Assembly: GCA_000063525.1 (NCBI GenBank)
Contig: CT978603.1
Span: 987,105-1,051,104, forward strand
DNA: 64,000 bases
DNA from: Synechococcus sp. RCC307
GTDB lineage: Bacteria; Cyanobacteriota; Cyanobacteriia; PCC-6307; Cyanobiaceae
Direction of reading: 5' to 3'
This document shows, in pieces, positions 963 to 14,042 of the stretch. The position numbers and the translations under genes are program-made. Position 1 is the stretch's first letter. Every line of letters begins with the position of its first letter. The notes beneath the pieces are model-generated. The model did not search any database. It was not told the DNA's origin and saw only the letters and a program-made list of their open reading frames with translations.

Positions 963-1309
963 TGCTCGCCTACCTCGTTGCCACATCACTGCTGATCCCG
1001 GCCAACCTCTGGGCTGCGATCACCCCGCACCTGCATAGCGAAGTGTCGATGCGGATCCTGCATGGGCTCTCCACGCTGGCGCTGCTGCCGTTGCTCTGGC
1101 AGCTCTGGGTGCGCCGCAAGCAAGATCTGCTCGTTTTCAGCCTGGTGTTGGCGGTGTTTTTGCTGGTGATGGTGGTGGTGAACGGTTGGATCACCTTTAT
1201 GGGGATGGGCGTGCAATTTGGCTGGCTGGATCACATCTTTTTGGCGATCGCCTGCAGCAGCGTGATTGCCTATTTCTTTGCTGAGCCCTCGTTGAGCGAA
1301 GGCGGCTAG
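962..1309 (+). CDS. Small multi-pass membrane protein, unknown function
   Basis: A 115-residue protein with about three to four hydrophobic segments (residues 1-20, 33-50, 57-78 and 88-108) separated by short basic or polar loops, so it is almost certainly an integral membrane protein. It starts within the stop of the histidine kinase (TGATG), which suggests translational coupling and perhaps a role with that kinase, such as signal input. I do not recognise the family. Its 3' end overlaps the convergent DUF1028 gene by four bases. Confidence 0.75.
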   Translation: MLAYLVATSLLIPANLWAAITPHLHSEVSMRILHGLSTLALLPLLWQLWVRRKQDLLVFSLVLAVFLLVMVVVNGWITFMGMGVQFGWLDHIFLAIACSSVIAYFFAEPSLSEGG

Positions 1310-2010
1310 GCCACCCCGGCGTTCAAGCCGCCGTCATCAGCGGGCCTGGGCCTGCCGTCGGGAAGGGCTGCGAATTGATCACGCCAGTGCTGCACCCAGT
1401 TCTGCTGGCTGTGCTCATAGAGGTGTTGCAGCTCGCCGACGGCAGTGGCGTTGAAATCCACGCGCAGATCCAGCAGCGGGAAATCCAGCTCGCCGCTGAC
1501 CTGCAGCGCTGCTGAGCTGGCCATCGGTGAGCGCCGATCACCACCAGCGGCTTCACCGGCCGCCAGCGCGCTCAACACCCGCCGGCCAATCTTCCAGCTG
1601 GGGTTGCTGTCGCGGAAGGTTTCGGCCATGGCCTCCAGCACCGCTGTGTTCTCGAGCCAATTGCCAGCCACGCTGAAGTTCTCGCCGCAGAGATGGCCGG
1701 CAAAGCCATTGCACTCTCCACCGGTCCAGGCCGATGAGCGCCCCTCGGCGTCCACCAGTTGAATCTGCCGGGCGTTGCGTTGCTCATCGCCTTTGAGCAG
1801 CCATTCGAGGGCTTCATTGGCGCTCAGTCCATTGCCGAGGGCTTCCAGTCCGCGGTGGGCCAGATAAGGGTTGGTGGCGCCTTGGCTGGCAGCAGCTCCA
1901 ATGTTCCTGCGCAGATGAGGAACGGTGGCGCCCACAGCGAGGTGGAACGTCGCCACAGCGACAGCAAATCGACCATTCCCAGGGTCTCGGGCAACGATCG
2001 AAAAGGTCAT
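1306..2010 (-). CDS. DUF1028 family protein (Ntn-hydrolase fold)
   Basis: A 234-residue protein beginning MTFSIVARDP, the typical start of DUF1028 proteins, which adopt the Ntn-hydrolase fold. The family pattern continues with conserved Gly/Ala-rich stretches (AVAVATFHLAVGATVPH, GAAASQGATNP) and a region around GRSSAWTG. The biochemical role of the family is not established. The ATG at 2010 overlaps the stop of the upstream amidohydrolase (TGATG), so it is the last gene of the carbamoyltransferase-asparagine synthetase-amidohydrolase operon. This suggests a role in the same nitrogen pathway, for example hydrolysis of a related amide. A longer upstream frame exists but would overlap the neighbour heavily. 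Confidence 0.85.
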   Translation of the reverse strand: MTFSIVARDPGNGRFAVAVATFHLAVGATVPHLRRNIGAAASQGATNPYLAHRGLEALGNGLSANEALEWLLKGDEQRNARQIQLVDAEGRSSAWTGGECNGFAGHLCGENFSVAGNWLENTAVLEAMAETFRDSNPSWKIGRRVLSALAAGEAAGGDRRSPMASSAALQVSGELDFPLLDLRVDFNATAVGELQHLYEHSQQNWVQHWRDQFAALPDGRPRPADDGGLNAGVA

Positions 2011-3290
2011 CAGCCCGGCACCTTGTTCAAGCGCTGATCCAGGCGCACCAGGCTTTGCATCAATACAGCGGTGCCGTCGGCGCACTGACGGCTGCTGGTG
2101 AATTCAGCTGCTGAGTGGCTCAATCCGCCGCGGCTGGGCACAAAGATCATTCCCATGGGCCAGCGTCGGCCCATTTCCTGCGAGTCGTGGCTGGCGCGGC
2201 TCGGCAGGGCGCTGCAACTCAAACCCAGGGTTTGGGCGGAGGCAGCAATGGCCTCAGTAACGCTCAGATGGGCGGGGGTGGGATCAACGCTGAATTGAGG
2301 CAGCAAAGAGATGGGGCAACCGCTCGCCCTGCTGATGCTGTGGAGCCGGCTTTCCAAGTCCTCCACCAATTCGCTCAGAACCTCGAGGCTGAGGTCGCGC
2401 AGATCAACGCTCAGCTCCACCTGGCCTGGCACCACGTTGGCGGCATTGGGCCAGAGCTGGAGTTTGCCAACGGTGCCCACGGGATCACCGGGGTGGTTGT
2501 TGGCCAGCTCTTGCACCGCCAGGATCACTTGGGCCGCAGTGGCCAAGGCGTCCTGACGGGCATCCATGGGTGTGGTGCCGGCATGGTTGGCCTGGCCTTC
2601 AATGCGCACCAAAAAACGGCGCTGGCCCACAACGCCCTCCACCAAACCGATGGCATCACCGCGGCTCTCGAGAATGCCGCCCTGCTCCACATGGAGCTCA
2701 ACAAAAGCGGCGATGGCGTCGTCAGAACGCCGTGCTTGCGCCAGCTGCTGCCAATTGCCGCCTGTGCGGGGCAGGTTGTCGCTGATCGATTGGCCGTTGC
2801 TGCAGGTGTAGTCAGCCGGGTTGTCGCTGGCGACTCCAGTCATTCCCTTGCAACCCACCATCGTGGACTCTTCATCGGCAAAGGCCACCACTTCCAAGGG
2901 GTGGCGCAGGCTGATGGCTTGATCCTTAAAGCTGCGGATCACTTCCAGCCCAGCCAACACTCCGAGGGCACCGTCAAAGCGGCCGCCGGTGGGCACGGTG
3001 TCGAGATGGGATCCCGTCACTAGGGCGGGCAGGCCTGGTTCTGTGCCTTCAATGCGGCCAATCAAATTGCCAGCGGCATCAATGCGAATGCTGGCTCCAG
3101 CGGCGATCAACCACTCGCTGAACAGGGTGCGGGCGCGGCAGTCGTCCTCTGTGAAGGCCAAACGCTTGACTGAGCCATCGTTTTGCAGGCCGATGGCGGC
3201 CATGGCATCCAAACTCGCGCTGAGGCGAGCCTCATCAACTGTTGCTGTCCAACTGGGTGTTTGGAGTGAAAGAGCAACCGATGGAGGCAT
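2010..3290 (-). CDS. M20 amidohydrolase, N-carbamoyl-L-amino-acid hydrolase / allantoate amidohydrolase type
   Basis: Zinc-dependent amidohydrolase of the M20 family, 426 residues. Family members remove the carbamoyl group from N-carbamoyl amino acids, ureidopropionate or allantoate, releasing ammonia and CO2. Visible metal-site motifs in order: GSHLDTVPTGGRFDG, DEEST, ELHVEQG, the lid-domain segment NHAGTTPM, the SHDSQEMG stretch and the C-terminal GGLSHSAAE. I chose the ATG at 3290 because the extra upstream residues (TTG at 3332) lack family character. It follows asnB by about 80 bases and overlaps the DUF1028 gene by one base, so it is likely the third gene of the nitrogen operon. The exact substrate cannot be read from sequence. 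Allantoate, ureidoglycine and N-carbamoyl amino acids are all possible. Confidence 0.85.
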   Translation of the reverse strand: MPPSVALSLQTPSWTATVDEARLSASLDAMAAIGLQNDGSVKRLAFTEDDCRARTLFSEWLIAAGASIRIDAAGNLIGRIEGTEPGLPALVTGSHLDTVPTGGRFDGALGVLAGLEVIRSFKDQAISLRHPLEVVAFADEESTMVGCKGMTGVASDNPADYTCSNGQSISDNLPRTGGNWQQLAQARRSDDAIAAFVELHVEQGGILESRGDAIGLVEGVVGQRRFLVRIEGQANHAGTTPMDARQDALATAAQVILAVQELANNHPGDPVGTVGKLQLWPNAANVVPGQVELSVDLRDLSLEVLSELVEDLESRLHSISRASGCPISLLPQFSVDPTPAHLSVTEAIAASAQTLGLSCSALPSRASHDSQEMGRRWPMGMIFVPSRGGLSHSAAEFTSSRQCADGTAVLMQSLVRLDQRLNKVPG

Positions 3291-3370
3291 GCAGCACAGC
3301 AGACGCCCCGTAACAATGGCCACTGTGGCCAATCACTGAGGTAGCGCAGGCGACTATTTCGCGGAGCCAG

Positions 3371-5392
3371 TTAAAAAACCTGTGCCGGTTCGCTCACATG
3401 CCAGCCCCGTGCATCGGCGGCCTGGCGGGCCTGGGCGGGCACATCGGTCTGCACAAACAGCTTGTGCAGGATTTGCACTCCCAATAAGTGATTCACCATT
3501 GCATCGAGCTGAACCTTTTCTGCTGCTGGTGTTTCTGGGTTGCGGTGGCGCTCGAGCAGCTGCGCAACACCCTCTGGATCCAACAAACCGCAGGTTCCGA
3601 TCGCCTCGCGGCTGAGATGGGCCGCTACGAGCTGATCAAGCTTTTGCAGCTTCTCCTCATCGGCATGGGCCGGTGGGGCCATGAACGCAAATTTCTCGCG
3701 GTGATAGAGCCGCTCAGGCAGCAGTCCAGCGACGGCTTCGCGCAGCACATGCTTTTCGCGCTGGTCTTTGATCCTTAGGTCGGGGGGAACCTGCACCGCC
3801 ACGGCGGCGAGATGGTGATCCAGGAACGGTGGCCTGGCCTCCATCGAATTGGCCATGTCCACCCGGTCTCCGCCCCAGGTGAGGATTTGGCCCTCCAGCA
3901 TCGTTTTGATCCACACGTACTGGGCCCGGTCCAGCACATGGCGCTCGTCGAGTTGTGAGCGATCCAGGGTGGCGGCAATGGCTTTGCCTGGCTCATAGCC
4001 AGCCATCGCTTCGCGGCGTTCGCTGGCCAGCAGTCCTGGCACCAGCGGGGCGCAGGCCAGCCACGGCTGCAGGCAGCTAGGGGTGAAGCCCACCGTTGCT
4101 GTGAGGTGGGGATCATCCACGGGCTTGGCGGCGAGCATGGCTCCTGTCACCAGGGCATTGGCTTGATCCAGCCGTTTTTGGCTCTGGTCTTGGTCGCCCC
4201 CATCGCTGCCGTGCAGGAACATGTCGCGCCGGAAGGCGGGGTAGCCGGCAAACAGTTCATCGGAGCCTTCGCCGGTCAGCACCACCTTGTAGTTGACGTG
4301 CCGCACATGGCGGCTCATCAGATATTTCGCCACGCCGAGAGTGTTGTAGATCGTGCGCTCGGTGTGCCAGAGGGTCGTTTCGAAATGGTCGTAGAGGTCA
4401 TCGCCTGAGAGGCGCATCACGTCCTGTTCGGCACCGGTGGCCTCAGCCATCTCCTTGGCGATATCGGTTTCGTCGTAGCGGCTGTCGTCAAAGCCGATCG
4501 TGAAGGCCTTCACCGGGGTTTGATTCACCGCGGCGGCCAACCCCAAGATCGAGCAGCTGTCGATGCCGCCGGAGAGATAACAACCCACCGGCACATCAGC
4601 CACCAGCCGCATTTCGATCGCCTCCAACAGCGAGCGGCGGATGGCGTTGATGTGCTGCTCTTCGCTGATGCTTTGGTCGCGCTCGTGGTCCTTGGGGAAA
4701 TCAAGGTCCCAATATTTATGGCCGGATGTGCGCAACAGCCCGCCTTCGCGCTGCACTTTCACCACATGGCCTGGTTGCACTTGGAAAATGCCGGCAAAGG
4801 CGGTGCTGCCCGGCACCATCGTTTGCATCAGTTGGTGGAACAGGCCTTCGGAGCTGAAATCCCGCTTCACTGCGGGGTGGGCAAACAACACCTTCAGCTC
4901 AGAGCCAAACACCAGTCCCTGGCTGGTCATCGTCCAGTACAGGGGCTTGATACCGAAGCGATCGCGCACCAGATAGAGGCAGTCCTCGTCGCGATCAAAC
5001 AGGGCAAAACCAAATTCGCCGCGCAGTTGCGGCAGGGTCGCCTCGAGCCCCTCGCGCAGATAAAGATGCAGCAGGATTTCTGAGTCGCTCTTGCTGTTGA
5101 AGCGCACGCCTTGCGCCACCAGTTCAGCGCGAATCCTCTGGAAGTCGTAGAACTCGCCGTTGTGGGCCATCAGCACCCGATCACAGCTGGATCGGAATGG
5201 CTGGCGGGCGCGGTTGCCCTCGAGATCAATGATCGAGAGGCGCGCATGGGTCATGCCGACGCCACTGTCGTGGATTTGGTAGCCAAAGCCATCCGGACCG
5301 CGATGGGCCTGGATCGCGGCCATGTTCACCAGCAGCTGGGGATCGATTGAATCACCCGCGTGGTGTGTGAAAACGCCTCCGATGCCGCACAT
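3371..5392 (-). CDS. asnB: Asparagine synthase (glutamine-hydrolysing), AsnB family
   Basis: Cytosolic class II glutamine amidotransferase, 673 residues, the usual length for the longer bacterial AsnB type. The N-terminal glutaminase domain begins MCGIGG with the nucleophile Cys2 and shows RGPDG, NGEFYD and SDSE. The synthetase domain carries the ATP pyrophosphatase loop LSGGIDS and the TGEGSDELFAGYP segment. The family activates an aspartate-like carboxylate with ATP and transfers ammonia from glutamine to it. It lies one base after the carbamoyltransferase stop and upstream of an M20 amidohydrolase. This operon is unusual for plain asparagine synthesis, so the acceptor could be a related or carbamoylated acid. 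That last point is inference. Confidence 0.92.
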   Translation of the reverse strand: MCGIGGVFTHHAGDSIDPQLLVNMAAIQAHRGPDGFGYQIHDSGVGMTHARLSIIDLEGNRARQPFRSSCDRVLMAHNGEFYDFQRIRAELVAQGVRFNSKSDSEILLHLYLREGLEATLPQLRGEFGFALFDRDEDCLYLVRDRFGIKPLYWTMTSQGLVFGSELKVLFAHPAVKRDFSSEGLFHQLMQTMVPGSTAFAGIFQVQPGHVVKVQREGGLLRTSGHKYWDLDFPKDHERDQSISEEQHINAIRRSLLEAIEMRLVADVPVGCYLSGGIDSCSILGLAAAVNQTPVKAFTIGFDDSRYDETDIAKEMAEATGAEQDVMRLSGDDLYDHFETTLWHTERTIYNTLGVAKYLMSRHVRHVNYKVVLTGEGSDELFAGYPAFRRDMFLHGSDGGDQDQSQKRLDQANALVTGAMLAAKPVDDPHLTATVGFTPSCLQPWLACAPLVPGLLASERREAMAGYEPGKAIAATLDRSQLDERHVLDRAQYVWIKTMLEGQILTWGGDRVDMANSMEARPPFLDHHLAAVAVQVPPDLRIKDQREKHVLREAVAGLLPERLYHREKFAFMAPPAHADEEKLQKLDQLVAAHLSREAIGTCGLLDPEGVAQLLERHRNPETPAAEKVQLDAMVNHLLGVQILHKLFVQTDVPAQARQAADARGWHVSEPAQVF

Positions 5393-5393
5393 G

Positions 5394-6518
5394 TCAGATC
5401 ACATCCATGACTTGGTCGGTGCGCTCAACCATGCAGGTGAGCAGCGCCATGCGCAGGAACACCGCTCCCCTGGCCTGCGCGAAATACCAGTTTTGGGGGG
5501 TTTCATCCAGCGAAGAGCAGAGCTCGCGGCCCCGTGCCAGGGGGTGCAACACGATTGAGCCCTCCTTGAAATCGGTGTCGGAGCTGAGCTGGAAGTTGCT
5601 GCCATGCACTTCAAAGCCATCGCCAACCCAGGCGATCGCGTTGATGTAGGTGACATCGAAGCGGCCCACTTCATCGTTGAGGCGGGTGGCTAAGCGCAGC
5701 TTCAAGCCGCTTTGCTCGAGCGCTTCGCGTTGGCCCGCATCGAACATCGTCTCGGCGGGATCGGTTTTGGGGTCGTGCAGGATCACGATCTCCTCAACGA
5801 TCTGCGGGAATTTGCCGAGGATCTGCAGCAGCGAGCGAACGGTGCGCATGCGCGATGGCACCCCAATGATTCCGATGCGGATGCGATCGGAGCGCTCCAC
5901 TTCTTGGCGGCACAGCGATGGCCTCCACTTGAGGATCGTGTAGAGATCCGTCATCGCCTGGGTCGGATGCTCACCGATCCCGTTGCCGGCATTGATGATC
6001 GGAATCTTCAGCGAGGTGGCCATCTCGTAGATGGCGGTCTCGCTGGTGTCGCGCAGCACCACGCAATCGCCGTAGTGGTTGAACATCTCAGCGATGTCGC
6101 TGAGGGATTCCCCTTTGGCAAGCCCTGTGGTGGAGGGGTCGGTGATGTTGATGGAGTCACCGCCTAAGCGGTGCCAGGCGCTGTCAAAGGACAGCCGGGT
6201 GCGGGTGCTGGGCTCATAGAAGGCATTGATGAGGATCTTGCCCTTGAGCGGCGAGTTGAAGCGGATGTAGCGCGCTGGATTGCTTTCAAATTTCGCCGAC
6301 AAACGAAACAGCTGACGCAAGGTGCGCGGGCTGTAGGCGTTGATCGAGATGACGTGCTGATTGATCAGCTCATGCAGCGCTTCGCCGTCTTCATGGATCC
6401 ACGACAGCAAATCCGTTGGAGAGGCAATCCCTGCGGTGTCGGCCTTCTCTCGGTTGAGCCGCAGCTGTTGCTTGAATTCCAACTGGTCAGGTTGCAAATG
6501 GCTAACGGCTTGGCCCAT
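5394..6518 (-). CDS. Aspartate/ornithine carbamoyltransferase family protein with altered amino-acid site
   Basis: A 374-residue homologue of PyrB with a roughly 50-residue N-terminal extension over the usual 310. Carbamoyl-phosphate contacts are intact: STRTR (104-108), Lys135 in the AKGES loop, Arg156 in VVLRD, HPTQ (184-187) and Arg225 in RMRTV. The second-substrate side differs. Where E. coli PyrB has the MTRVQ loop that binds aspartate, this protein has YINAIAW (291-297), and HPLPR is HPLARG (325-330). The C-terminus still aligns well (TPQNWYFAQA). It is therefore probably a carbamoyltransferase, but perhaps not for aspartate. It is the first gene of the asnB operon, and a perfect GTAN8TAC box lies about 140 bases upstream. 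The ATG at 6518 gives the longest convincing frame. Confidence 0.85.
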   Translation of the reverse strand: MGQAVSHLQPDQLEFKQQLRLNREKADTAGIASPTDLLSWIHEDGEALHELINQHVISINAYSPRTLRQLFRLSAKFESNPARYIRFNSPLKGKILINAFYEPSTRTRLSFDSAWHRLGGDSINITDPSTTGLAKGESLSDIAEMFNHYGDCVVLRDTSETAIYEMATSLKIPIINAGNGIGEHPTQAMTDLYTILKWRPSLCRQEVERSDRIRIGIIGVPSRMRTVRSLLQILGKFPQIVEEIVILHDPKTDPAETMFDAGQREALEQSGLKLRLATRLNDEVGRFDVTYINAIAWVGDGFEVHGSNFQLSSDTDFKEGSIVLHPLARGRELCSSLDETPQNWYFAQARGAVFLRMALLTCMVERTDQVMDVI

Positions 6519-6659
6519 AGCGTGGATCCAACTGAGCAGTGCTTGATGGGCCGAAAAGTATCGATCGACTCCATCAACCCGTCATAGCAAAGTGATCCAG
6601 GTGTGAATCAGGGCTGCGATATTCAGCTTTCCTTCGTGATTGAGAGCGTTGAGATTTCA

Positions 6660-6673
6660 GTATCAAGAGCTAC
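6660..6673. promoter_or_regulatory. Predicted NtcA-binding site (GTA-N8-TAC)
   Basis: The sequence GTATCAAGAGCTAC matches the NtcA consensus GTAN8TAC exactly. NtcA is the global nitrogen regulator of cyanobacteria. The box is in the 239-base gap between the 72-residue membrane protein gene and the carbamoyltransferase gene, about 140 bases before the latter's ATG. No clear -10 hexamer (TAN3T) stands at the usual 20-24 base spacing on the minus strand, which weakens the call. A six-base match is expected about 0.06 times by chance in a gap this size with equal base use. The rest of the gap shows no other clear element. Confidence 0.5.
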
Positions 6674-6757
6674 TGGCGTGAGGTGTTTTGGCTCGTTCAG
6701 CAACAGCCTGAGCAGCAGAAAATACGAATTAATTGATGACGGTTGGTTTCGCTGATG

Positions 6758-6976
6758 TCACCAGAGCTTTCCCTTCTGCCATTCCCGAAACCAGATCGTC
6801 AACAAAACCACCGTGGCGAGTAAAAGCCCGAACAATCCGCCGTAGACAATCCAGCGGAATCCTTCGGCTCCTACTTCCAAGCTCGGGGTTGAGGGCGCGT
6901 CTTGCTCGGCGGCATGGGCTGCGATGGCGAGACAGCTGCTAACCCCACTCAGCGACAACCAGGAACGGCGCTTCAT
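6758..6976 (-). CDS. Small membrane protein with signal peptide, next to symporter
   Basis: A 72-residue protein. Residues 1-22 (MKRRSWLSLSG...AHA) look like a cleavable signal peptide. After a short polar stretch, residues 41-63 form one hydrophobic segment, and the tail is basic and aromatic (FREWQKGKLW). Predicted topology is N-out, C-in after cleavage. Its ATG overlaps the stop of the sodium/solute symporter (ATGA), so the two are co-translated. A dedicated small partner of the transporter is likely by context. I do not recognise a named family. Confidence 0.75.
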   Translation of the reverse strand: MKRRSWLSLSGVSSCLAIAAHAAEQDAPSTPSLEVGAEGFRWIVYGGLFGLLLATVVLLTIWFREWQKGKLW

Positions 6977-8394
6977 GCTTCCTCCTGCAATTGGGACCAG
7001 CGGAATTCAGCGGGCCAGAAGCGGCTCGCCACGATCATCACCACAGCTGATACAGCGGCCGAAAGCACCGCAGCGCAGTAGGGCGCAATCAGCCAGTAGG
7101 CCGCTAGTCCGCAGGCCGTTCCGGCGAGCATGGCAGCGATGGCACCGCTGCGGCTCGCTGTTGGCCAATACAGCCCGCAGGCCACTGGCCACACCGTGGA
7201 AGCCACCAAGGCACCGGTGAAGAACAGCACGCTGGCGAGCGAATCCAAACGCGGCCAGGAGAGCAGCAGCGTCAGCCCGCCCAGCAGCACCACCATCCAC
7301 TGGGTGGCGAGCTTGAGTTCCCGGTCGCTGGCTTCTGGTTTGAACAGCTTTAAAAACACGTCTTCCGCCAACAGATCAGCGGTGGAGGCCAGCAAGGAAT
7401 CCAGCGTTGAAGTGAGCGAGGCGAAGACCACGATGAATACCAAGGCAGCGCCGCCGGCCCCCAGCAATTGCGCCGTCATCACGGGGAACACCATGTTCAC
7501 TTGGGGCACCTCGAGCTTGCTGGCCAGGGCCAATAAGCCAATCGATCCGGTGACGATCGGAATCGTCATCCAGCCCAAACCGCCCAACACAAATGAGCGG
7601 AACACCACATTGCGGCGCGAGGCAAACACCCGCGACCACCAGATATTGCTGTGAAACACCTCTCCCATCGAAAACAGGGCGGAGTTCCAAGCGATGAGCA
7701 AGCCCGCTGGCAGCAGCAGGTTGAGCCGCTGCGGGTGGCTAGCGATTAGGGCCTGGTGCACCTCACTGCTGGGGAAGCGCATGTAGGCCAGTGCTGCCAC
7801 CACCAGCAGCAACACCATGATCAGCAGCGACTGGATGAAGTCGGTTCCCACCACCGCGCGCATGCCGCCAAACAGCGTGTAGATCGTCGACACCCCAATC
7901 ACCACCACCATCCCAAGGCGGTAGTCAAAACCGGAGAGGGCCTCCAGCAAGATCCCCGCCCCCATCGCCTGGGTGATCAAAAAGCCCAGGGTGTAAATCG
8001 CTGTGATCACCATGAACACCCACCAGGCGGCGCGGCCATAGCGCAGGCGAATGAAGTCGCCGCTGGTGCGGGCCGATGGCATCAAGTCCTTGATGCGCAG
8101 GGCCAAAGGGGCAAACAGGATCAGCCCTAGACCCGCCAGGGCGTAGCTGAACATTCCCCAGAGGCCGTTGCGGTAGCCGAATTCAGGCGCCAATAGGGTT
8201 GTGTTGCCAGTGACCCACGACGCCATCAAGGTCGCTGTGCTCAGGGCCAGGCCGATGTTGCGGCCGGCCAGCATGAACTCATCGGCGTCGCCTTTGCCTT
8301 GGTGACCCCACCAGATGCCCAGGGCAATCCATAAAACAGAGAACAGCACCACCAGCATCCAGGCGATGCCGGGGGCCAAGAACGGTTCAGCCAT
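6973..8394 (-). CDS. Sodium:solute symporter (SSS family), urea/ureide-transporter-like
   Basis: A 473-residue integral membrane protein with about 13 hydrophobic segments, the normal size for SSS transporters, which import small solutes with Na+. The segment after TM2 (ASWVTGNTTLLAPEFGYRNG, then GDFIRLRYG) resembles the DUR3-type urea/polyamine branch more than the proline branch. The family signature region includes GGMRAVVGTDFIQ and STLDSLLASTADL. It overlaps a 41-residue membrane ORF at its start and the 72-residue membrane protein at its end. Downstream lie carbamoyltransferase, AsnB and carbamoyl-hydrolase genes, so urea, an ureide or an N-carbamoyl compound is a plausible cargo. Substrate assignment is inference. 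Confidence 0.88.
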   Translation of the reverse strand: MAEPFLAPGIAWMLVVLFSVLWIALGIWWGHQGKGDADEFMLAGRNIGLALSTATLMASWVTGNTTLLAPEFGYRNGLWGMFSYALAGLGLILFAPLALRIKDLMPSARTSGDFIRLRYGRAAWWVFMVITAIYTLGFLITQAMGAGILLEALSGFDYRLGMVVVIGVSTIYTLFGGMRAVVGTDFIQSLLIMVLLLVVAALAYMRFPSSEVHQALIASHPQRLNLLLPAGLLIAWNSALFSMGEVFHSNIWWSRVFASRRNVVFRSFVLGGLGWMTIPIVTGSIGLLALASKLEVPQVNMVFPVMTAQLLGAGGAALVFIVVFASLTSTLDSLLASTADLLAEDVFLKLFKPEASDRELKLATQWMVVLLGGLTLLLSWPRLDSLASVLFFTGALVASTVWPVACGLYWPTASRSGAIAAMLAGTACGLAAYWLIAPYCAAVLSAAVSAVVMIVASRFWPAEFRWSQLQEEA

Positions 8395-8512
8395 GGCGCT
8401 CGCCCAACTCAGCGGCGTAGCGGCGATGGCCTTGGATGATCATCACCACCGTGGCCGCTGTGACTAGGCCTCCAGTGATGAAGATCAGCAAGGCCCAATG
8501 GAACTCCTGCAT
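8387..8512 (-). CDS. 41-residue single-span membrane protein upstream of symporter
   Basis: A short frame from ATG at 8512 (MQEFHWALLIFITGG...) to a TGA that overlaps the symporter start by eight bases. Residues 6-26 form one clear hydrophobic helix, followed by a basic and polar tail (QGHRRYAAELGERHG), giving a small type I/III-like membrane protein. Overlap with the symporter start favours real translation. Small partner subunits (DUF485, DUF4212) are known next to some SSS transporters, and this could be an analogous subunit, though it is shorter. It faces rsmE across a 48-base divergent gap that must hold both promoters. Confidence 0.6.
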   Translation of the reverse strand: MQEFHWALLIFITGGLVTAATVVMIIQGHRRYAAELGERHG

Positions 8513-11631: not shown

Positions 11632-12411
11632 TCAGAGGGCTTGGGTGAGTTCGGCTTGTTGGCGCTGGGGCTCTTGATGCAGCTCGAGCACCTCATCGCT
11701 GAGTAGGCAGTCGGCGATGGTGGCTTGAATCCCTCCGCCATCGAGGGCTTTGCCTTGCACGCTCAGCATCGAGCAGCGCTTGGGCCTGCCATCGGGTGGT
11801 GCCACCGATTCCAACGGCAGGAATTGAGAGCCTCCTTGGCTCACCATCCAGTTGCAGAAAAACGCGCGGCCATCAGGCAGATTCATCAAGGCCTTGGCGC
11901 GGTAGACATCGCCGTAGGCGCCATTGACCAGCTCAAACCAAAAGCTGCTGAGGCTGTTGGGATCCCAAACGCATCTCTCCAGGGGCATGCTCCAGGCCTC
12001 CAGCCGGCTGAACTCCAAGGTGTCGTCTTTGGGGAGGTCGTCGTCTCGCCCGAAATGCAGGGCCCGATCCAGGCGCAGGCCCAGGGCTTCAAGCTGCTGG
12101 ATCACGCTCGAGTCCACGCCCTCCAGAGCGCTTGACGATGGCGGCTCAAATTGGGTCAGCTCGATGAGATTGAGCTGCTGCTCCTGATCGTTTGGCGCCT
12201 GATCGGTGTTGGAGAGGTCAATCAGATCGGTGATCTGATCCTGCAAATAGGTCTGATCAATGGCGCCATCATCTGCTTGCTCGAGGCCAGTTGTTGAGAT
12301 GCCCGGTAGGCGCAGGTAGCCCCGCTGCCCCTGATGGTTTTTCAGGGTGTTGAGCATCCAAGTTGTTTTGCCGCAACCCGGAGGCCCGGAGATCAGCCAG
12401 GTTTGGGCCAT
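11632..12411 (-). CDS. CobW-like (G3E) P-loop GTPase, divergent
   Basis: A 259-residue protein beginning with a Walker A motif, GPPGCGKTT (residues 9-17). A Walker B-like ELTQFEPPSS stands where G3E GTPases have ETTGLADP, and the C-terminal part (RAKALMNLPDGRAFF) resembles the CobW C-terminal domain. The CxCC metal-binding motif common in the family is absent, and the NKxD motif is not obvious. G3E GTPases deliver or insert metals. A Zur/Fur-like box lies 18 bases upstream, and two metallophosphoesterase homologues follow. A role in supplying a metal to these or other enzymes under metal shortage is a reasonable inference. Confidence 0.72.
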   Translation of the reverse strand: MAQTWLISGPPGCGKTTWMLNTLKNHQGQRGYLRLPGISTTGLEQADDGAIDQTYLQDQITDLIDLSNTDQAPNDQEQQLNLIELTQFEPPSSSALEGVDSSVIQQLEALGLRLDRALHFGRDDDLPKDDTLEFSRLEAWSMPLERCVWDPNSLSSFWFELVNGAYGDVYRAKALMNLPDGRAFFCNWMVSQGGSQFLPLESVAPPDGRPKRCSMLSVQGKALDGGGIQATIADCLLSDEVLELHQEPQRQQAELTQAL

Positions 12412-12429
12412 GGAGCACTCAGCTCTTGG

Positions 12430-12444
12430 CGGGAATCATTCTCA
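12430..12444. promoter_or_regulatory. Zur/Fur-like operator upstream of CobW-like operon
   Basis: CGGGAATCATTCTCA on the plus strand (minus: TGAGAATGATTCCCG) has the 7-1-7 layout of cyanobacterial Zur boxes (TGAnAAT-n-ATTnTCA). One half-site matches perfectly and the other partly. It ends 18 bases before the GTPase ATG, where a repressor would block transcription. A Fur site is an alternative, since AATGAGAATGAT also fits Fur hexamers. Confidence 0.4.
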
Positions 12445-12497
12445 TTGTGGTCAAGCGGGGTTGGCTGTGTCCAGCGTCCACTCGGCGCCAGCAGCAG

Positions 12498-12755
12498 CTA
12501 GCGCCCTTCGCAGTGCTCCACCGCTTTGAGGTAATTCAATTTCCCTGGTGAGGTGGCGCCTTGCGGGTTCACGGCAACCCGCATCTGAACTTGAGCATCA
12601 ATGCAGCGGTTGTAGCGATGGGTTTTCACCGCTTGGGGGATCAACAGCACCGTGATCGCCAGCAAGCTGATTGTGCTGATGGCGGCCAGCAGTGGGTAGG
12701 TGTGGGCCCGCACCATCTCGCGAGCTGAGAGCTGTTGGTCGCTGTGGTCAGCCAT
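12498..12755 (-). CDS. Small single-span membrane protein, unknown
   Basis: An 85-residue protein from ATG at 12755. The N-terminal part is polar (MADHSDQQLSAREMV), one hydrophobic helix spans about residues 21-44, and a soluble C-terminal part has two Cys (CIDAQV, EHCEGR) that could pair outside the membrane. I recognise no named family. An in-frame TTG at 12770 would add five residues. It points the same way as the CobW-like operon but is separated by about 86 bases that hold the Zur/Fur-like box, so it is likely its own unit. Confidence 0.65.
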   Translation of the reverse strand: MADHSDQQLSAREMVRAHTYPLLAAISTISLLAITVLLIPQAVKTHRYNRCIDAQVQMRVAVNPQGATSPGKLNYLKAVEHCEGR

Positions 12756-12836
12756 AACGTCTGCCTTCAAGCCCCCATAGTCTCCCGTGCCGTTGCAACC
12801 ATGTGTCGCCTTTAAACCGCCGCCCCTACGGTTTCC

Positions 12837-14042
12837 ATGTCATGGAGGCCAATGATGGCTCCTGCCTTTGAGGTCTTCCGCCAGTTCTTGCTGCTGGGCT
12901 GCAGCTCCTTTGGCGGACCCACAGCCCATCTGGGCTATTTCCGTGAGCGATTTGTGGAACGCGAGCGGTGGCTCACCGATGCGGCTTATGCCGATTTGAT
13001 GGCCCTGGCGAGCCTGTTGCCTGGACCATCGAGCTCCCAGGTCGGCATGGGCATTGGCCTGTTGCGCGCCGGATGGTTTGGTGCGGTGGCGGCTTGGGTG
13101 GGATTCACCTTGCCATCGGCTGTGCTGATGATCCTGGCGGCAGCGCTGCTGACCAGCTATCCGGATTGGATGTCTGCTCCATGGCTGCAAGGTCTGATGG
13201 TGGCTGCTGTTGCGGTGGTGGCGCAGGCTGTCTTCGGCATGCAGCGTCGTCTAGCGCCAGATCCGCAGCGGGCCAGCGTCATGGTGGGCTCGGCTGTGCT
13301 TGTGCTGCTGGTGCAGACCAGTTGGGTTCAGGTTTTGGCTTTGGTTGCCGGTGCTCTGGCTGGGCTGAGTTGGCTGGCGCCTCCTCCAGCGGGAGCCGCA
13401 CCTCAGGCGATGTTGCAGGTGCCTGTGCGGCGATCGATTGCCGTCCTGTTGCTTGCTTTGTTCGCGCTCGTGGTGCTCGCCTTGCCCTGGCTGGGGGCGT
13501 CCGCCAGGCCGGTTGTGATCCAGCAGTTGAGCAGCTTCCTGCGCGCTGGTGCTCTGGTGTTTGGGGGCGGCCATGTGGTGTTGCCGCTGCTTGAGCAATC
13601 GCTCGTGCCGCCGGGATGGCTTGGCCTTGATCAGTTTTTGGCGGGTTACGGATTGGCGCAGTCGGTGCCTGGTCCCATGTTCAGCTTCTCGGCGTTCCTG
13701 GGTTTTGATCTGCAGGGCGGATTGCATGGGGTGATCGGTGCATTGTTGGCGTTGATCGCCCTGTTCACCCCGGCGTTCCTGTTGATTGGCGGTGTCTTGC
13801 CGTTTTGGGGCGACCTGGGTCGCTTGGGTTCCATGCGGCGTGCTCTTCAAGGCATCAACGCGGCGGTGGTTGGCATCCTTTTGGCGGCCCTGTTTCAACC
13901 GCTCTGGCAAGTCGCGATTCGTGGTGTCGCTGACTTTTGCTTGGCCTTGGTGGCCTTTCTGCTGTTAGTCGGCTGGAAACAGCCGGCATGGCGGGTGGTG
14001 ATGGCTTGCGCTCTTGTTGGCGCCGTGCTGTTGCCGGCTTAA
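12837..14042 (+). CDS. chrA: Chromate transporter (CHR family, long form)
   Basis: A 401-residue inner-membrane protein of the long, two-domain CHR type. The signature FRQFLLLGCSSFGGPTAH followed by GYFRERFVERERWL opens the first domain. A second similar block (ALVFGGGHVVLPLLEQ, then AQSVPGPMFSFS) opens the second. The family exports chromate, often competing with sulfate, though many members have never been tested. The ATG at 12837 is followed by two further ATGs at codons 6 and 7 that could also serve. The next gene starts one codon after its stop. Confidence 0.88.
   Translation: MSWRPMMAPAFEVFRQFLLLGCSSFGGPTAHLGYFRERFVERERWLTDAAYADLMALASLLPGPSSSQVGMGIGLLRAGWFGAVAAWVGFTLPSAVLMILAAALLTSYPDWMSAPWLQGLMVAAVAVVAQAVFGMQRRLAPDPQRASVMVGSAVLVLLVQTSWVQVLALVAGALAGLSWLAPPPAGAAPQAMLQVPVRRSIAVLLLALFALVVLALPWLGASARPVVIQQLSSFLRAGALVFGGGHVVLPLLEQSLVPPGWLGLDQFLAGYGLAQSVPGPMFSFSAFLGFDLQGGLHGVIGALLALIALFTPAFLLIGGVLPFWGDLGRLGSMRRALQGINAAVVGILLAALFQPLWQVAIRGVADFCLALVAFLLLVGWKQPAWRVVMACALVGAVLLPA

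Follow-up and report, generated by a model that had tools for sequence, protein, structure and literature searches.

N-acetylglutaminylglutamine amide (NAGGN) is a neutral glutamine-based osmolyte whose operon in Pseudomonas aeruginosa comprises the MarR-type PA3458, AsnO and the N-capping enzyme Ngg (PMC8070244). N-carbamoyl-glutamine amide (CGA) has likewise been reported as a compatible solute (PMC3857566, PMC1224877); the 1991 report, as cited in both papers, concerns the purple sulfur bacterium Ectothiorhodospira marismortui, which is its only known source (PMC3857566). In its accessible text, Imhoff et al. 2020 (PMC7824335) lists strain DSM 4180T as E. marismortui and names the solute, and gives no genes there; in the accessible literature no genes or enzymes for CGA in this species were found described. 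Here we analysed a stretch of 64,000 nucleotides (the window) from Synechococcus sp. RCC307, in which a cluster of seven genes at 1306-8512 includes a carbamoyltransferase (CTase) and an AsnB-type amidotransferase. We consider it probable, from sequence comparison, that this cluster serves to make, re-import and recycle CGA as a salt-protecting osmolyte, which would provide candidate genes for a compatible solute known from a single bacterium.

In the proposed pathway, the CTase would transfer the carbamoyl group of carbamoyl phosphate onto the alpha-amino group of L-glutamine, yielding N-alpha-carbamoyl-L-glutamine. The AsnB-type enzyme would then amidate the alpha-carboxylate to the 1-carboxamide at the expense of ATP and another glutamine, which is the role of AsnO in the NAGGN pathway; in the resulting CGA, neither charge of glutamine would remain exposed. 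The sodium:solute symporter (SSS) and its small transmembrane partners would bring back CGA that has leaked out or is present outside the cell. Under falling salt or nitrogen demand, the DUF1028 protein (in proteobacteria, a cysteine hydrolase) would remove the 1-amide of CGA and, in the last step of breakdown, the M20 hydrolase would convert N-carbamoyl-glutamine to glutamine, CO2 and NH3. A MarR regulator may control the CGA genes, as in the NAGGN system. The assignment is supported by the one-to-one match between the two enzymes and the two changes that turn glutamine into CGA, and by accessory genes that fit this solute, namely an N-carbamoylase, a DUR3-like symporter and amide hydrolases. 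We infer CGA as the product strongly, and the transport and breakdown roles more weakly.

The proposed pathway resembles that of NAGGN in combining an N-capping enzyme with an AsnB-type enzyme that amidates a terminal alpha-carboxylate to give a neutral glutamine-based osmolyte, and in having a MarR regulator nearby and a metallohydrolase-type gene in the cluster. By contrast, its cap would be a carbamoyl group from carbamoyl phosphate instead of an acetyl group, no dipeptide would be formed, and a symporter and a carbamoylase are added. The amidotransferase lies outside the AsnO model TIGR03104, with 299 bits for the window protein and 301 bits for that of Ectothiorhodospira mobilis compared to a cut-off of 570.1, and in a family search none of the seven genes showed an Ngg/GNAT acetyltransferase domain. 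Membership of the NAGGN system was rejected on these two grounds. Allantoin and oxamate pathways were also considered for the cluster and rejected.

A third, altered carbamoyltransferase

The RCC307 genome (2.22 Mb, a single contig, with marine Synechococcus as nearest relatives) encodes three carbamoyltransferases. Two of them sit outside the cluster and are the true PyrB (290 bits to TIGR00670, cut-off 237) and ArgF (387 bits to TIGR00658, cut-off 281). The third, encoded at 5394..6518 on the minus strand (PF02729/PF00185), fails the PyrB family model TIGR00670 with 188.4 bits compared to a cut-off of 236.95, a value similar to the 182.8 bits of its E. mobilis homologue. Against the ornithine, putrescine and YgeW carbamoyltransferase models it scores 93, 74 and 25 bits, and none of the respective cut-offs (281, 500 and 500) is reached. 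Exactly three carbamoyltransferases were also found in each of the eight other host genomes checked. The initial annotation had described this CTase as altered and had left open that it might be the sole PyrB of the genome; the first point is confirmed by the model score and by the residues described below, and the second is answered by the presence of PyrB and ArgF elsewhere.

In all, 81 cluster CTases were compared using the residue numbering of E. coli PyrB. The carbamoyl-phosphate site (S52, T53, R54, T55, K84, R105, H134 and Q137) and R167 are kept in all 81. In every one, however, the aspartate pocket is changed, R229 being replaced by A, S or T, Q231 by A or S, and P268 by A. Pocket positions 228 (Asn), 230 (Ile), 232 (Trp) and 268 (Ala) are uniform throughout the set. 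In aspartate carbamoyltransferase (ATCase), Arg229 is located in the active site and Arg167 contacts the bisubstrate analogue PALA (PMC6056424). Judged by its carbamoyl-phosphate site, the window protein is a carbamoyltransferase, though this does not make it an ATCase; since the carbamoyl-phosphate residues are kept and R229 and Q231 lost, it is predicted to carbamoylate the amino group of an acceptor without the acidic side chain of aspartate.

The predicted structural model of the CTase (pLDDT 78.8) has ATCases as its best solved-structure matches, and the ATCase match begins near residue 50, leaving an N-terminal extension. In a quick tree, the cluster CTases form their own clade (SH-aLRT 97). 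Its outgroup branches are so long that the root, and with it any direction of gene transfer, is unreliable. The cluster CTase thus shares with PyrB the fold, the carbamoyl-phosphate site and R167, and differs from it in the lost pocket residues, the P268 change, the extension, the separate clade and the additional presence of PyrB in the genome. It would represent a new function for a subfamily that family resemblance alone would label aspartate carbamoyltransferase and whose AsnB neighbour would probably be annotated as asparagine synthetase.

Could the two genes nevertheless be an ordinary duplicated aspartate carbamoyltransferase and an asparagine synthetase, neighbours only by history? Resemblance is kept at the family level, as the CTase still reaches 188 bits with TIGR00670 and the AsnB exceeds the cut-off of TIGR01536, and in Kangiella a single full-length gene of the AsnB type is present. 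This explanation is nonetheless already contradicted by the sub-threshold CTase score, the loss of R229 and Q231 in 81 of 81 sequences and the separate PyrB and ArgF, and the pair co-occurs across phyla; we regard it as scarcely credible.

Five more distant CTase homologues, 32-37% identical, were also retrieved (L166:8224-9252, L167:3866-4873, L168:2495-3472, L169:7247-8305 and L174:7892-8656). Four were inspected fully and one partly; they have neither the carbamoyl-phosphate motif nor any cluster neighbour. Most of the STRT, K84, H134 and Q137 residues are missing, and the L174 match spans the later part only. These proteins probably belong to a different, non-carbamoylating family, and the joint absence of motif and neighbours supports the CGA assignment. 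A motif-keeping CTase that is only 43% identical to that of the window has AsnB, SSS and M20 genes alongside. It should be noted that one Synechococcaceae genome carries two cluster-type CTases (G438:C1:2535827-2536906 and 1682796-1683869; L047 and L058). When plasmid sequences were searched by tblastn with the CTase, all matches were of the PyrB type, with an identity of about 29-32% for those listed, and scans of viral contigs gave only distant PyrB-like matches.

The amidotransferase and its bond to the carbamoyltransferase

The AsnB-type glutamine-dependent amidotransferase (3371..5392, minus strand; PF00733 + GATase) is separated from the CTase by 1 bp and falls below the cut-off of the XrtA model TIGR03108. 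In a scan of public genomes with the CTase, the best 80 of 236 matches were examined, and AsnB lies directly downstream of the CTase in 79 of these 80 loci, which come from Cyanobacteria, Gammaproteobacteria and Alphaproteobacteria. At the single remaining locus the contig stops 25 bp past the CTase. The gene set is not confined to RCC307, as this adjacency and the relatives described below show.

The association was then measured in 369 evenly sampled Gammaproteobacteria genomes, with E-values below 1e-100 for the CTase and below 1e-180 for the AsnB subfamily. Both genes were found in the identical 23 genomes and neither in the other 346 (Fisher log10 p of -36, kinship ignored). Where both share a contig in this sample, they are 22-553 bp apart, save for one fragmentary AsnB match. 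Similarly, the pairwise identities of CTase and AsnB correlate over 35 loci (r 0.86; Mantel 0/5000). On this comparative evidence, the core of the cluster is the CTase-AsnB pair, and the M20, DUF1028 and symporter genes are accessory and replaceable.

These data bear on the two pathways suggested in the initial annotation. In the catabolic one, an imported N-carbamoyl compound, a ureide, would be split by the CTase to carbamoyl phosphate. Catabolic carbamoyltransferases do exist, and the urea-like symporter, the M20 carbamoylase and DUF1028 are all present. However, the strictest partner of the CTase is an ATP-using glutamine amidotransferase, to which this pathway gives no role despite its occurrence in exactly the same 23 genomes, whereas M20, SSS and DUF1028 are variable; moreover, the CTase is closest to ATCase and far under the cut-offs of the YgeW, ornithine and putrescine models. 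A catabolic ureide pathway thus appears highly improbable, and this half of the suggestion was not sustained. The synthetic half, in which a carbamoyl group is added, the acid is amidated by AsnB and the carbamoyl group is later removed, held up, as it comes close to the CGA pathway favoured here. Four points go beyond that annotation: the product, its role as an osmolyte, the Ectothiorhodospira connection and the CTase-AsnB core.

As a side observation, the AsnB match is in two pieces at L040:5824-7884, L077:9802-11821 and L099:9797-11807. L077 and L099, both single-cell assemblies, show frame changes, and L040 shows either a gap or a frame change; these splits would reflect sequencing error or decay.

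Distribution and the Ectothiorhodospira link

The CGA hypothesis had been written down before the genome scan recovered the CTase, with AsnB directly downstream, in E. mobilis DSM 4180 (locus L115). The presence of the CTase in the strain reported to make CGA supports the assignment: the product proposed here is the one that accumulates in E. marismortui, and DSM 4180 carries the cluster. Among the best 80 matches, the cluster is further found in E. mobilis DSM 237, E. shaposhnikovii, E. haloalkaliphila and E. marina, in Thioalkalivibrio metagenome-assembled genomes (MAGs), Thiohalobacter, Kangiella, Idiomarina, Pseudidiomarina, Aliidiomarina, the Pseudoalteromonas piscicida group and Kordiimonas, and in many Prochlorococcus, MIT 9314 (L088) among them, and Synechococcus. 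We take these named hosts to be mostly marine, halophilic or soda-lake bacteria. Of 47 genomes in the E. mobilis family, 41 have the CTase, as do 17 of 386 sampled Cyanobacteria, which all belong to the family of RCC307. The picocyanobacterial version of the cluster, with the gene order and identity of Synechococcus and Prochlorococcus, was also seen on contigs assigned to a Gammaproteobacteria MAG (CPC316, L082) and to a Trichodesmium MAG (MAG_R03, L089), which are probably mis-binned.

Our literature search, outside which recent preprints may lie, found no description of CGA genes or of the picocyanobacterial cluster. This agrees with the earlier suggestion of an undescribed nitrogen-rich pathway, and the biosynthetic genes of CGA appear to have been undescribed until now.

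In Ectothiorhodospira, the order is a divergent sucrose synthase, MarR, M20, a cysteine hydrolase, CTase, AsnB and an opposite-strand pfkB sugar kinase. The cysteine hydrolase has an isochorismatase fold and is related to N-carbamoylsarcosine and biuret amidohydrolases. The flanking sucrose synthase and pfkB kinase (L115:3606-5990 and 11965-12879) link the cluster to a second osmolyte, and the set of MarR, amidotransferase and N-capping enzyme follows the logic of the NAGGN operon; both support an osmolyte role. Alternatively, CGA could be made chiefly to store nitrogen or to be exchanged. The compound (C6H12N4O3) contains four nitrogens to six carbons, genes dedicated to its uptake and breakdown adjoin the synthetic genes, and the cluster occurs in open-ocean Prochlorococcus. 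Against this stand the named hosts, presumably almost all of marine, halophilic or soda-lake types, the sucrose-synthase and MarR context, and the report of CGA as a compatible solute; since storage and osmolyte roles are compatible, we find a mainly storage function rather unlikely.

As to the acceptor, the pair might make another N-carbamoyl amino acid amide in some or all hosts. Cyanobacterial and proteobacterial CTases are about 62% identical, positions 229 and 231 vary among A, S and T, and the acceptor pocket is predicted from sequence. Glutamine is proposed because of the E. mobilis link and the loss of the site for an acidic side chain, and glutamate amidated twice or another neutral amino acid may serve instead. 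The near-invariance of the pocket in all 81 CTases, the CGA-producing strain included, and the report of CGA as the product in an Ectothiorhodospira strain sharing this pocket make such an alternative product unlikely. Several further points weigh against the CGA proposal as a whole. E. mobilis has several further AsnB-like genes, CGA is a minor solute in E. marismortui (PMC3857566), and an osmolyte with four nitrogens is odd for nitrogen-poor waters. In addition, an adjacent symporter is missing from the Ectothiorhodospira and Prochlorococcus clusters, and identity to the M20 and SSS proteins of the window is no more than 31-51% in proteobacteria, so that the substrate may differ among these accessory genes.

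The proposal of CGA as product predicts this solute, together with genes devoted to its uptake and recycling, in marine Synechococcus, Prochlorococcus, Idiomarina and Kangiella. If true, this would bear on salt tolerance and marine organic nitrogen, the hosts being abundant phototrophs and common heterotrophs. More tentatively, and with less than even likelihood, CGA might be an unrecognised nitrogen-rich osmolyte shared by part of these four genera, exchanged through the DUR3-like symporter and acting both as salt protectant and as a currency of dissolved organic nitrogen.

Accessory genes and layout of the window cluster

All seven open reading frames are present on the minus strand and belong to the families initially named, with overlaps or short gaps between them. 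In the direction of transcription they encode a 41-residue peptide with a single transmembrane segment, the SSS symporter, a 72-residue transmembrane protein, CTase, AsnB, M20 and DUF1028. Four of the six junctions are overlaps (41-residue peptide/SSS, SSS/72-residue protein and M20/DUF1028) or 1 bp; a gap of about 240 bp precedes the CTase and a short one precedes M20. Scans for promoters and terminators of the window cluster gave no signal above chance. Seven other Synechococcaceae have the cluster, six with all main genes and one with the 5' part, where the contig ends.

The symporter (6973..8394; PF00474, SSF) has DUR3 urea symporters as its nearest solved structures (E-value 8e-28), in line with its earlier description as urea-like. 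These relatives fit a ureido-bearing solute, from which a role in CGA uptake is proposed. An SSS gene is present in 29 and an M20 gene in 25 of 35 proteobacterial loci, many of which have a MarR regulator, and in some gammaproteobacteria a single row comprises the genes for M20, cysteine hydrolase, SSS, CTase and AsnB.

The M20 protein (2010..3332, with the ATG at 3290 as a possible alternative start) belongs to the same family as the hydantoinase/carbamoylase M20 enzymes (TIGR01879, 395.1 bits compared to a cut-off of 204). Its best solved relative is the N-carbamoyl-L-amino acid hydrolase 3n5f (E-value 3e-85), and the H/D/E/H and N..R motifs are kept. It differs from ErtE in falling below the ErtE cut-off (410 compared to 520 bits) and in its location in a synthetic cluster. 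The motif for the substrate carboxylate appears to be kept, and for this reason we propose that the 1-amide of CGA would be removed first.

Cyanobacterial clusters have DUF1028 where proteobacteria have the cysteine hydrolase. In the window this gene (1306..2010; PF06267) more likely starts at ATG 2010, in a TGATG overlap with the M20 stop, than at GTG 2085. M1-T2-F3-S4-I5 is invariant in 11 homologues. The AlphaFold model (pLDDT 83.5) matches the DUF1028 structure 2imh well and the N-terminal nucleophile (Ntn) folds of Anbu and the 20S proteasome weakly (TM 0.3-0.44). The protein is tentatively predicted to be an amidohydrolase of the Ntn type, for which the invariant Thr2 is a candidate nucleophile.

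The 41-residue peptide (8387..8512; KD19 maximum 2.49) overlaps the SSS start and has a counterpart upstream of SSS in all seven Synechococcaceae relatives. The 72-residue protein (6758..6976; KD19 maximum 2.37) has one C-terminal transmembrane segment, shares 4 bp (ATGA) with the end of the SSS gene, has no Pfam match and has counterparts at several cyanobacterial loci. Both could possibly be accessory subunits of the symporter. At five proteobacterial loci (L085, L113, L116, L135 and L139), a protein of 140-190 residues is encoded upstream of SSS, with a signal-like N-terminus in L139, and is possibly the functional counterpart of these two peptides.

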